NCBI GenBank assembly: GCA_021787845.1
Contig: JAJYLH010000005.1
Span: forward strand, 150,658 to 214,657
Direction of reading: 5' to 3'
DNA: 64,000 nt
DNA from: Myxococcales bacterium
GTDB lineage: Bacteria; Myxococcota; Myxococcia; Myxococcales; JAJYLH01
Shown here piece by piece: positions 52,439 to 60,175 of the stretch (position 1 is the first letter of the stretch; each line of letters opens with the position of its first letter). The position numbers were made by a program, and so were the translations under genes. The notes under the pieces were generated by a model. That model saw nothing but the letters and a program-made list of their open reading frames with translations, did no database searches and was not told the DNA's origin.

Positions 52439-52480
52439 GATCCGACCGATCCGTCCGATCCGACCGATCGGTCCGATCGG
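52439..52480. repeat. 9-bp GATCSGWCS tandem array, locus 4 (5 units)
   Basis: GATC at 52439, 52448, 52457, 52466, 52475 between convergent udk and asnS. Confidence 0.9.
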
Positions 52481-52566: not shown

Positions 52567-53874
52567 CTACGGCTTGAGCCGCTCCATCGTCCGGGCGAAG
52601 GGAATCGTCTCCCGCACGTGATGGATGCCGCAGAGGTACGCGACGGTCCGCTCGACGCCGAGACCGAAGCCGGCGTGCGGCACGGATCCGTACCGGCGCA
52701 GGTCCAGGTACCAATCGAACGCCTCGACCGGCAGTTTCGCGTCGCGGATGCGCTGGACGAGCGTGTCGTAGTCCTCTTCGCGCTGGCCGCCGCCGATGAT
52801 TTCGCCGTAACCCTCGGGCGCGAGGACGTCGAGGCCCAGAGCGTACTTCCCGGTCGCGTCGCGCTTGAAGTAGAACGCCTTCATCTCCGCCGGGAAGTGG
52901 TGGACGATCACCGGCCGGTCGAACATGTTCGCGAGGAGCGTTTCCTCGTCGCCGCCGATGTCGTCGCCCCACTTGATGGGCGTATCCGGCCGCGCCGTCT
53001 TCAACCGGTCGATCGCCTCGTCGTAGGTGATGCGCGGGAACGGCGGGGTCGCGTTTTCCAGCTTGGTCACGTCTCGTTCGAGCACGCTCACCAGCTCCTG
53101 GCGGTGTTTCGCGAGCACCGTCCGGACGACGTGCCCGATGAGCTGCTCCGCGAGCTCCATGTCGCCCGCGAGGTCCATGAACGCGACCTCCGGCTCGACC
53201 ATCCAGAATTCGGTCAGGTGGCGGCGGGTCTTCGACTTCTCGGCGCGGAAGGTGGGCCCGAAAACGTACGCTTTTCCGACCGCCATCGCCGCGGCCTCGC
53301 CGTAGAGCTGCCCCGACTGCGTCAGGTACGCCTTGCCCAGGTCGAAATAAGGCACTTCGAAGAGCGTGCTCGTCCCCTCGCACGCGGCGGGCGTGAACAT
53401 CGGCGCGTCGACCAGGGTGAACCCGCGCTCGTCGAAGAAATCGCGGATGGCCTTGACCACCGTGTGCCGGACGCCGAGGATGACGCGCTGCCGGCTGGAG
53501 CGCAGCCACAGGTGGCGGTTGTCCATCAGGAACGCGACGCCGTGCTCCTTGTGGCCGAGCGGATAGTCGGGCGCGGCCTCGCTGACGACCTCCATCGCCT
53601 TCGCGGAAAGCTCGAAGCCGATGGGGCTGCGCGGGTCCTTCTTGACGACGCCGGTGAGGCTGAGCGCGCTCTCCTGGTTCAGATGGTCGGCGCGCTTGAA
53701 CGTCTCCTCGTCGAAATCGCCCTTGAACAGGACGCACTGGATGCTCCCGGTCCCGTCCCGGAGCTGGAGGAAGTGCAGCTTGCCGCTCGACCGGCGATTC
53801 GCGAGCCAGCCCCGGAGCGTCACCTCTTGGCCTTCGTAGTGGGCGATATCGGCGATGTAGACGTGCGCGGCCAT
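52567..53874 (-). CDS. asnS: Asparaginyl-tRNA synthetase
   Basis: [79 protein letters not shown]. Confidence 0.95.
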
Positions 53875-53998
53875 GGCGTTCCCTCGAAAAAAAGGCGAGG
53901 GAACATAGCGGAAGCATCGCGAGCGCTCAAGCGGCCCGGGCCCGCGGCCGTCTGGCTCGCCCCGGCGTCACTGCGGGGGCTTGGCCGGCACGCGGTCC

Positions 53999-54389
53999 TC
54001 GAAAAGCTCGACTTATCCACAGGCCGCGGTACAAGGTCGTCGAAAGACGTAACTTTTACCGATTGTGCGGCGCAGGCTCCCCGAAAAGCTCGACTTATCC
54101 ACAGGCTGCGCTGCAAGGACCTCGAAAGACGTAACTTTTACCGACCGTGCGCGACGGGTTCCCCGAAAACGACACTTTCCGACGACCTCGCGCCACCGGC
54201 TCCTCGAAAACGACACTTTTCGGCGACCTCGCGCCACCGGCTCCTCGAAAACGATGCTTTTCGACGACCTCGCGCGACGAGGTCCCCGAAAACGACACTT
54301 TTCGACGACCCCGCGCCACCAGCTCCCCGAAAACGACACTTTTCGACGACCCTGCGCGACGAGGTTCCCGAAAACGACACTTTCCGGCG
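53999..54389. repeat. 41-bp tandem repeat array (nine full units plus a split tenth)
   Basis: Units start at 53999, 54040, 54081, 54122, 54163, 54204, 54245, 54286, 54327, 54368 with constant 41-bp spacing; core CGAAAACGACACTTTTCG. Confidence 0.93.
54013..54103 (+). other. Two perfect DnaA-box sequences TTATCCACA (54013-54021 and 54095-54103)
   Basis: Exact match to the E. coli-type DnaA box consensus; 82 bp apart, i.e. two 41-bp units. Confidence 0.6.
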
Positions 54390-54830
54390 GCGGGCATCGC
54401 CGTCGTCGGGTGGATGAGCCGGGCGGGACGCCCCCTCCCCAACCCGTCCCCCGCAAAGTACGCGGGAGAGGGGCTAACTGTGCCTTCGCATAGGCGATCT
54501 TTTCGGCTCCGCGCTGTCCCGCGTGGGTAGTGCGCAACGAGATGGCGTTCATGATCGTGCTCCATCTCGGCCGGAATTGGAGCCGGACACGTGAGTGTCC
54601 GGGTACAGGCACCGCGCACATGCGTTGGCCAAGCCAGCGCCAGGCCGCTGCCAGCGGGCGGATGCCCAGCATGAACCCGGACACTCACGTGTCCGGCTCC
54701 CGCTCCAATTCCGATTCCCACTCGAAACAGCGCGGAGCCAGCTTTTCCTCCCTCTCCCGCGCTCTTGCGGGGAAGGGGTTGGGGAGGGGGGGCGCCGCGG
54801 GCGACAACCCGAGGCGTCTGGATGCCCCCA
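54390..54830. mobile_element. MITE-like nested fold-back element, non-coding, ~441 bp, flanked by 8-bp direct repeat TTCCGGCG
   Basis: TTCCGGCG at 54382-54389 and 54831-54838; imperfect terminal inverted repeats (GGGCATC...CCCCCTCCCCAACCC...CCCCGCAA...GCGGGAGAGGGG); the flanks rejoin into one 41-bp-type unit. Confidence 0.65.
54579..54700. repeat. Inverted pair of REP-like hairpins (BIME-like)
   Basis: GGAGCCGGACACGTGAGTGTCCGGGT (54579-54604) and its exact reverse complement (54675-54700); each arm is itself a hairpin CCGGACAC-GTGA-GTGTCCGG. Confidence 0.85.
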
Positions 54831-54979
54831 TTCCGGCGACCCCGCGCGACCGGCTCTCCGGCGGCGCCGCCAGCCGATGTGATCCGCGTCGCATCTTCTT
54901 TTTTTGACTCCGGCGAGCGTGCGCGGTACCAAGCAAGCGTTCTACGTGCGGTTTGCGGCGGTCGAAGCGAGGCAACGGG

Positions 54980-55741
54980 ATGAAGCTGCGAGTTCTGGGC
55001 TGTCACGGCGGCGAGCTGCCGGGGTTTCGCACCACCTGCCTGCTCATCGACGAGAAGACCGCGCTCGATGCCGGCGCGCTCACGGCGACGCTCGCGCTGC
55101 CCGAGCTGGTGGAGGTCGATGACATCTTTCTCACCCACTCGCATCTCGATCACGTCAAGGACGTCGCGCTCCTCGCCGACCTGCTCATCAGCCAGCGCGA
55201 AACCCCGGTGCGCATCCGCGGCACCAAGGCCTGCCTCGACACCATCGGCGGTTCGCTCTTGAACGACCGGCTCTGGCCCGACTTCACCAAGCTGCCGAAC
55301 GCGAGCCATCCCGTCGTCGAGCTCGTGCCGCTCACGGCCGGCGAGCCGGTCCAGGTCCGCCACCTCTCTTGGACCGCGGTCCCGGTCACCCATCCGGTCG
55401 ACTCGGTCGGCTACGTCATCGCGAGCGGCGGGCGCTCGATCGTGCTCAGCGGCGACACCGGCCCGACCGAGGCGCTCTGGAAAGCGGTCAACGCGCGCAA
55501 CGACGTCGCGGCGCTCTTCGTCGAGCTGTCGTTTCCGAACGAGCTGCAGTGGCTCGCCGACATTTCCGGCCATCTGACGCCGCGGACGCTCGCCCAGGAG
55601 CTCGCCAAGGCGCGCGGCGACATGCCGGTCTTCCTCTACCACCTGAAGCCCGCCTTCCTCGACGTCCTCCGCCGCGAGGTCGAGGAACTGCACAATCCGC
55701 GGCTCGAGATTCTCGAGCTCGACGACGAGCTCGAATTCTAA
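54980..55741 (+). CDS. MBL-fold metal-dependent hydrolase, class II cyclic-nucleotide phosphodiesterase-like
   Basis: LTHSHLDHVKDVALLADLL, GYVIASGGRSIVLSGDTGPTEALW, HLKPAFLD. Confidence 0.82.
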   Translation: MKLRVLGCHGGELPGFRTTCLLIDEKTALDAGALTATLALPELVEVDDIFLTHSHLDHVKDVALLADLLISQRETPVRIRGTKACLDTIGGSLLNDRLWPDFTKLPNASHPVVELVPLTAGEPVQVRHLSWTAVPVTHPVDSVGYVIASGGRSIVLSGDTGPTEALWKAVNARNDVAALFVELSFPNELQWLADISGHLTPRTLAQELAKARGDMPVFLYHLKPAFLDVLRREVEELHNPRLEILELDDELEF

Positions 55742-58325: not shown

Positions 58326-58379
58326 GATCTGTCCGATCAGACCGATCGGTCGGATCCGACGGATCGGTCCGATCGGATA
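58326..58379. repeat. 9-bp GATCSGWCS tandem array, locus 5 (6 units)
   Basis: GATC at 58326, 58335, 58344, 58353, 58362, 58371. Confidence 0.9.
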
Positions 58380-58474: not shown

Positions 58475-60175
58475 ATGCGTCTTTTTGCGGGAGCGGCTCA
58501 GCGGATGGGAAGAGGGTGGCTCGCTCTGAGCGTGGCGCTTGCGCTGCCGCTCTCCGCTTCCGCCGCCAACTTGCGCCGCCTGGAAAAGGTCGAGCTGAGC
58601 GGCACCGGAATCGCCACCGCGCTCGCCATCACCACCGACGGCCCCGCGAACTGGACGAGCTTCAAGCTTTCCGAGCCGACGCGAATCGTTCTCGACTTTC
58701 CGGAGACGGTCGCCACCGCGCAGAGCTACGAAGTCGCGTCCGACGACCCCGTGACGCGCTGGAGCATCGAGGTCCTGGGCGATCCGCGCTCGCCGACGGC
58801 GCGCCTGACCGTGCAGCTCGCCCGCGACGCGGACTACCTCGTCACGTCGCACGGCTCGACCATCACGCTGAAGCTGCGACCGGCGACCGCGCGGCCACTC
58901 GTCGCGCTGGCGACCGAGAGAGCACGAGCGCAGCCGGCAAGCGCGCCAGCCCCCTCCGCCACCACCGGATGGTCGACAAAGAAGCGCGCGGCGATCGAGG
59001 CGCGGCTCGACGCCAAGGCCAAGACCGAGGCGGCGGATGTGGCCGCCGCGAAGCGCCTCGAGGCGAAACGAAAAGCGGACCAAGCTGCGCGACGCGCGGC
59101 GCAAGAGAAGGCCCGAGAGGCGGCCCAGCTCGCGGCGAAGAAAAAGGCGGAAGCGGCCGCGCATGCGGAGGCGAAACGAAGAGCGGATGAAGCCGCGAGG
59201 CGCTCGGCGCAGGAGAAGGCACGAAAGGCGGCTCAGCTCGCGGCGAAGAAAACGGCGGAAGCGGCCGCGCGCGCGGAGGCGAAGCGAAGAGCGGATGAAG
59301 CCGCGAGGCGCGCGGCGCAGGAGAAGGCTCGCCAGGAGGCGAAGCTCGCGGCGAACGAGAAAGCGGAGGCCGCGGCGCGCGCGGAGGCGAAACGAAGAGC
59401 GGACGAGGCCGCAAAGCGCGCGGCGCGTCAGAAGGCTCGTCAGGAAGCGAAGCTGGCGGCGAAGAAGAAGGCGGAAGCCGAGGCACGCGCGGAGGCGAAA
59501 CGAAGAGCGGACGAAGCCGCGAAGCGCGCGGCGCGTGAGAAAGCGCGAAAGGCGGCCCGGCTCGCGGCGAAAGAGCAAGCGGAAGCCGAGGCGCGCGCGG
59601 AGGCGAAACGAAGAGCGGACGAAGCCGCAAAGCACGCGGCGCGTGAGAAGGCACGAAAGGCGGCCCAGCTCGCGGCGAAAGAACAAGCGGAAGCCGAGGC
59701 GCGCGCGGAGGCGAAGCGAAAAGCGGACGAGGCCGCGAAGCGCCGGGCGGCACGAGCGGCGCGCAAGGCAGAAGCGGTCTCGGGGAGGCGCGCCGCCAAG
59801 CCGCGTCGCACGCTCGCGAGGTTGCGCCCGCTGGGATTCCGGCGCATGGCGACTGGCGACGCCGAGATCCTCATCCGCACGAGCGCGCCGGTGCCGTTCG
59901 CGCTCGACACCCAGGCGCGCGACCAATGCTCCGTCGAGCTGGAAGACACCGTCATCGACGTCGCGAACAATCGGCTGCCGCTCGACACGCGCTACTTCGA
60001 CACCGCGGTCGCGCGGGTGGCGCCGCACGCGAATCGCGCCCATCGGCGCGTGAGCATCGAAATCGATCTCTCCCATCCCGCCATCTGCGCCGTGCGCGCC
60101 GCGGGAAGCTCGTTGCGCGTCGAGGTCCTCGGAAGCGGTGCGGCCTTGCGAGCAGCGATTCCCGGCGGGAGATGA
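58475..60175 (+). CDS. AMIN-domain protein with central 36-aa helical tandem repeats and a C-terminal AMIN-like domain
   Basis: Signal peptide then LRRLEKVELSGTGIATALAITTDGPANWTSFKLSEPTRIVLDFP (AMIN-like); repeats AEAKRRADEAAKRAAREKARKAAQLAAKEQAEAEAR; C-terminal MATGDAEILIRTSAPVPFALDTQ. Confidence 0.85.
   Translation: MRLFAGAAQRMGRGWLALSVALALPLSASAANLRRLEKVELSGTGIATALAITTDGPANWTSFKLSEPTRIVLDFPETVATAQSYEVASDDPVTRWSIEVLGDPRSPTARLTVQLARDADYLVTSHGSTITLKLRPATARPLVALATERARAQPASAPAPSATTGWSTKKRAAIEARLDAKAKTEAADVAAAKRLEAKRKADQAARRAAQEKAREAAQLAAKKKAEAAAHAEAKRRADEAARRSAQEKARKAAQLAAKKTAEAAARAEAKRRADEAARRAAQEKARQEAKLAANEKAEAAARAEAKRRADEAAKRAARQKARQEAKLAAKKKAEAEARAEAKRRADEAAKRAAREKARKAARLAAKEQAEAEARAEAKRRADEAAKHAAREKARKAAQLAAKEQAEAEARAEAKRKADEAAKRRAARAARKAEAVSGRRAAKPRRTLARLRPLGFRRMATGDAEILIRTSAPVPFALDTQARDQCSVELEDTVIDVANNRLPLDTRYFDTAVARVAPHANRAHRRVSIEIDLSHPAICAVRAAGSSLRVEVLGSGAALRAAIPGGR
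59056..59745 (+). repeat. 108-bp (36-aa) in-frame tandem repeats, about six copies
   Basis: Segment gcggaggcgaa(a/g)cgaagagcgga(t/c)ga recurs every 108 bp (around 59164, 59272, 59380, 59488, 59596, 59704). Confidence 0.88.

Follow-up and report, generated by a model that had tools for sequence, protein, structure and literature searches.

What kind of element is the array of 41-bp repeats lying between the divergent genes for asparagine--tRNA ligase (asnS) and an MBL-fold hydrolase in the genome of a Myxococcales bacterium, and is it tied to either gene? An earlier note, made from the 64,000-nucleotide stretch of DNA analyzed here (herein referred to as the window), took its position as suggesting a cis-acting array, either protein-binding or a structured RNA.

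Architecture of the 41-bp Array

The array consists of nine full units at 53999-54367 and a split tenth. The following features were assigned to the array and its flanks:

52567..53874, minus strand: asnS, asparagine--tRNA ligase, neighbour outside the array
53999..54039, plus strand: unit 1, type A, with a perfect DnaA-box-like TTATCCACA at 54013-54021
54040..54080, plus strand: unit 2, type B
54081..54121, plus strand: unit 3, type A, with TTATCCACA at 54095-54103
54122..54162, plus strand: unit 4, type B
54163..54367, plus strand: type C units 5-9, carrying the dyad CGAAAA-CGACAC-TTTTCG (in variant form in units 5 and 7)
54368..54389, plus strand: left part of unit 10, ending in the first TTCCGGCG copy (8 bp, 54382-54389)
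54831..54857, plus strand: right part of unit 10, with the second TTCCGGCG copy at 54831-54838
54980..55741, plus strand: MBL-fold hydrolase of the Lactamase_B_2 / PDEase_II type, neighbour outside the array

Unit starts (53999, 54040 ... 54327) follow each other in exact 41-bp steps, and the partial tenth begins at 54368. Tandem Repeats Finder reported the 41-bp period together with higher-order rows of 82 and 123 bp over 53996-54383; this and the exact register of 53999-54367 bear out the nine evenly spaced units and the start of a tenth described in the earlier note. The A-B-A-B alternation that it had seen in the first four units was found as well, with identities of 85% between the two A units, 83% between the two B units, and 54-56% between A and B. 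Its assignment of the whole span 53999-54859 to the array was right about the split tenth unit and wrong about the end, since that span takes in an inserted element.

The C units are 78-93% identical among themselves. Their right halves recur at 82 bp, GCGCGACGAGGT being common to units 7 and 9, and the simplest reading of the unit sequences is that the array grew by 82-bp dimers. A 21-bp half-unit was looked for inside the 41-bp unit of the window and was not found. Minisatellites are composed of head-to-tail units of about 10-100 bp, and nine full units of 41 bp with a split tenth correspond to this form.

Inserted Palindromic Element

Unit 10 is interrupted by a nested palindromic element:

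54390..54830, no strand assigned: MITE-like insert, 441 bp, with imperfect terminal inverted repeats
54423..54798, no strand assigned: outer palindrome, arms 54423-54456 and 54765-54798
54505..54739, no strand assigned: inner palindrome, arms 54505-54527/54717-54739 and 54579-54610/54669-54700

The insert is flanked by an exact 8-bp direct duplication, TTCCGGCG, at 54382-54389 and 54831-54838. Both halves of unit 10 fit the unit consensus, and one TTCCGGCG copy with the two flanks makes exactly 41 bp. Judged by its inverted ends (imperfect at the termini, 85-94% complementary in the inner arms), by the 8-bp target site duplication around 54390-54830, and by its multi-copy, non-coding nature, the insert behaves like a MITE. 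Parts of it matched 131 stretches genome-wide, most of them partially, and 61 insert-like clusters, including the window's own, were found in 1.97 Mb of the same genome; none of these 131 stretches and 61 clusters was a second full-length match. The inner palindrome is the part most often met elsewhere in the genome, and there are shorter copies with the outer palindrome and without the inner one. Ten of the 60 other clusters are no more than 150 bp away from a tandem array, while arrays with this margin cover 1.1% of the sequence; this proximity is partly accounted for by arrays made up of the element's motif and by the avoidance of genes by clusters and arrays alike. A whole-genome search for the Y1 transposase family (Y1_Tnp) gave only one match above cut-off, with no link seen to palindromes of the insert type.

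Distribution of the Array and Its Gene Context

In the 6.24-Mb genome, the C core and a two-unit profile gave strong matches at this locus only. Weaker profile matches at other loci looked chance-like on inspection and were rejected. The array was found in none of 145 other genomes of the order, which gave two weak partial matches only, and in none of 196 other genomes of the phylum; among the 60 nearest genomes compared, none belongs to the same genus or family. Collections of plasmids, phages, and viruses contained no match to the array. In a phylum scan, a looser three-unit pattern matched this genome only. The same pattern read backwards, as a control, was matched by a single other genome, which shows that homology is not needed for matches of this kind. 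The two-unit pattern was found in five stretches among 85,462 species genomes, including those of Amphibacillus (41-bp units), a Flavobacteriaceae MAG (40 bp), and a Deltaproteobacteria MAG (39 bp). These stretches were rejected as homologous arrays, having been selected by the pattern and spacing range; on a rough estimate, so short a motif is also expected by chance in a few arrays. In the Amphibacillus species (L077, L079, L081), arrays of 41 bp occur in dispersed form; their dyad, TGCGAAATTCTTACTTTTCG, is similar, and its two halves look like diverged copies of about 20.5 bp.

The immediate neighbours of the array are asnS, udk, the MBL gene, and accD; the MBL hydrolase resembles class-II cAMP phosphodiesterase. 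In none of 29 relatives do the MBL gene and asnS lie 1.5 kb or less apart, which makes the junction lineage-specific. The proposal of a cis-acting array dedicated to this position is not supported, because junction and array are both absent in relatives and because 37 other arrays of the genome lie next to unrelated genes in every orientation. We infer that the array has no regulatory role.

Other Tandem Arrays and Their Periods

Further stretches of the same genome, 1.91 Mb in length (L086-L185; 1.97 Mb with the window), were surveyed with Tandem Repeats Finder and a simple custom codon-usage gene caller. These stretches are not a random sample, some contigs having been chosen for their dispersed repeats. 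Counting those with a period of 19 to 95 bp and 2.8 or more copies, there are 37 further non-coding arrays in the 1.97 Mb. Their periods fall at 20-22 bp (11 arrays), 41-44 bp (13), 63-65 bp (3), and 82-85 bp (4), with 6 others; the window array is outside these counts, the survey having kept its 123-bp row. The 37 arrays are mostly unrelated in sequence and occupy tandem, convergent, and divergent gaps. The genes flanking them are also unrelated and have no common function.

The periods are strongly clustered. After related arrays were merged into families by hand, 12 of the 16 families with a period of 23-62 bp and at least 2.8 copies were found at 41-44 bp (p about 1e-9 against a uniform distribution), as were 14 of 27 at 1.9 copies (p about 6e-8), and a Rayleigh test at 21.2 bp gave R of about 0.73-0.75; the period range and the value of 21.2 bp were picked after the data were seen, so these p-values are optimistic, and the concentration is still large. 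Coding arrays lack this clustering, with only 2 of 50 at 41-44 bp. Several of the 41-44-bp units elsewhere have half-unit similarity at a lag of 20-22, which suggests from the unit sequences that they arose by doubling of 21-bp units.

The controls were 400 kb from two relatives and 700 kb from two high-GC replicons that are unrelated. Together they yielded a single non-coding array with 2.8 or more copies, compared with 37 in 1.97 Mb of this genome, and nine arrays with fewer copies, the periods of which were mostly near 21-23 and 44-46 bp. The clustering may thus be more general than this genome, to the extent that such small controls indicate. A search of openly licensed papers on helical-multiple periods of bacterial tandem repeats gave nothing on point.

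It is conceivable, and we propose it tentatively, that a process in this genome makes or keeps unrelated non-coding arrays mainly at multiples of about 21 bp (21, 42, 63, 84), the 41-bp array being one readout of it. Under such a process, the most likely cause of these multiples would be helix phasing, acting through a coating nucleoid protein or through duplication of whole turns.

Some further observations were made among these arrays. Three unrelated arrays of 42, 42, and 43 bp are present inside 6.6 kb (L087:13168-19774). A motif of about 18-20 bp, GGACYGYCCAWCCYACTGG, is common to arrays at different loci, each with its own remainder of a different length: L124:9669 (28 bp), L150:3188 (30 bp), L178:908 (38 bp), L087:16556 (42 bp), and L101:8305 (62 bp). 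These arrays are built of a constant part and an array-specific filler. Two 43-bp arrays (L167:6276-6636 and L168:14485-14811) have the core CCGTCTGTAYYTTACACA in common and differ in their remainders.

Shared Dyad and Possible Protein Binding

The pattern CGAAAA-N2-11-TTTTCG was found at 11 sites in the genome, four of them in the window array and seven in a family of arrays with a period of 82-84 bp (contigs C55, C95, C116, and C148). The reversed pattern had no match in the whole genome. About 0.2 sites would be expected by chance on a rough composition estimate, so the two families probably share ancestry or a constraint on their sequence. Loci of the 82-84-bp family (L150:5258-5492, L172:5429-5822, L118:1-293, L208, and L209) carry the dyad as CCGAAAACG-N-TTTTCGG, as in the window, and two copies of the family abut the same dispersed palindrome.

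The main alternative to a minisatellite origin is that a dimeric nucleoid-associated protein or regulator binds CGAAAA-N-TTTTCG, the 41-bp spacing (about four helical turns) placing the sites on one face of the helix and allowing polymerisation or DNA looping. No other block of the C units is as well conserved as the dyad: of the 41 circular shifts, only one is as good, namely the dyad itself. Its arms vary least in these units and recur in the second family, and for these reasons the protein-binding part of the earlier proposal could still hold. The confinement of all 11 genomic sites to two tandem array families and the clustering of array periods at helical multiples also agree with a bound protein. 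However, the dyad is not intact in units of types A and B, the sequences of most other arrays are different, arrays are found between convergent genes too, and the flanking genes have no common function. In addition, homogenisation within an array can mimic conservation. On balance, binding of this kind appears unlikely.

Coding Potential and Folding

The earlier note had considered the array non-coding, and codon usage agrees: scores were -19 to -31 in all six frames, compared with +57 for an equal number of codons of the MBL gene. A coding array is ruled out by these negative scores. Other repeats of the window were also recorded. A coding 108-bp repeat (36 amino acids, rich in Ala, Lys, Arg, and Glu, helix-like) occupies 59060-59743; the open frame that contains it lies upstream of an LptD-like gene. 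Near gene ends, at 52439-52478 and 58326-58378, there are short repeats of 9/18 bp, of the GATCCGTCC / GATCGGTCC type; two-copy repeats of 18 bp also occur commonly in other parts of the genome.

The small hairpin CGAAAA-CGACAC-TTTTCG reported in the earlier note is present but weak. The repeated hairpins could form a structured RNA, or an attenuator transcribed ahead of asnS or the MBL gene, and on either strand the whole array does fold better than its dinucleotide shuffles (z -3.4 and -3.9). However, such folding is what the tandem arrangement of a dyad would produce by itself. Folded singly as DNA, only one unit clearly beats its shuffles (z -2.75), and pair counts in the units are not above column shuffles, giving no covariation beyond them. 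Rfam contained no credible match, its only two matches being sub-threshold and at chance level, and the array is not conserved in relatives. Sigma-70-like sites were not found, which says little for this bacterial group. A structured RNA is thus very unlikely, and that part of the earlier proposal lacks specific support.

Possible Replication Site or Assembly Artefact

The two perfect TTATCCACA DnaA boxes, 82 bp apart, could recall a replication-related site with an iteron- or datA-like cluster, and two exact boxes compare with about 0.9 matches expected in the window at up to one mismatch. However, both are located in the duplicated type A units, where the second was copied from the first, so they count as one event. 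Units 5-10 have no box, the window scanned shows no switch of GC skew nearby of the kind that accompanies a box cluster at oriC, and no AT-rich unwinding region or dnaA-type neighbour was seen; a role in replication is highly improbable. An artefactual array or copy number is hardly credible either: the genome is a draft of 153 contigs with several other arrays at contig ends, but the window array lies inside a 215-kb contig, and most of its units are told apart by differences of 7-20% or more, which allows them to be placed by reads; any error would be limited to the exact number of copies.

Proposed Origin of the Array

The array is probably a minisatellite produced by slippage or recombination, grown by duplication of single units and 82-bp dimers and later split by a transposable palindrome. 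An intergenic 41-bp segment would have been multiplied through replication slippage or unequal recombination. Repeated duplication of 82-bp dimers would then have given the A-B-A-B order and, subsequently, C units with alternating right halves. Finally, a nested palindromic MITE-like element would have transposed into the last unit, duplicating 8 bp. The array would be one product of a genome-wide tendency to tandem arrays near multiples of 21 bp (two helical turns), rather than a switch serving asnS or the MBL gene specifically.

This minisatellite reading is based on the higher-order duplication at 82 and 41 bp seen in the unit identities, the 8-bp duplication around a multi-copy insert, the lack of a coding signal, the lack of conservation of array and junction, the 37 other arrays, and the 12 of 16 families at 41-44 bp. 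Against it stands the dyad, best conserved in the C units and found elsewhere only in the 82-84-bp family, which hints at a bound protein. Moreover, periods near 42 bp recur in unrelated arrays, and blind slippage offers no explanation for this. Alone, the 41-bp array would be unremarkable, an intergenic minisatellite that a small mobile element has interrupted; the unexpected regularity is the strong clustering of array periods, independent of sequence. Should finished genomes show this clustering too, it would offer a way into the question of how bacterial minisatellites originate, by helix-phased duplication or protein coating, where the explanation is usually left at "slippage".

Comparison with Known Systems

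Intergenic minisatellites, or VNTR loci, are a known class in bacteria, MIRU-VNTR being an example. Like them, the window array is composed of non-coding tandem units of tens of bp that are partly diverged and have higher-order duplications, and this genome, like others, has many such loci. It differs in that many unrelated loci have periods near 21-bp multiples, and we know of no report of unrelated minisatellite loci sharing such periods.

CRISPR arrays are similar in their regular spacing, the partial dyad in the repeat, and their intergenic position. However, they have unique spacers, which are absent from the window array, where the whole 41 bp repeats; the earlier statement that the array is not CRISPR-like was therefore correct.

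REP and BIME elements are dispersed extragenic palindromes (PMC2817692) and resemble the 441-bp insert rather than the array. The insert differs from them in its greater length (441 bp), its nesting, and the 8-bp duplication on its flanks.

BrickBuilt of Porphyromonas gingivalis is a minisatellite of 23-nt tandem repeats within a MITE (PMC4596501). It is similar in combining tandem repeats with a MITE, in MITE-within-MITE nesting, and in target duplications (PMC4596501). In BrickBuilt, the repeat lies inside the MITE and is copied along with it, in 19 copies (PMC4596501); in contrast, the window array is single-copy, and its MITE-like element was inserted into the last unit.
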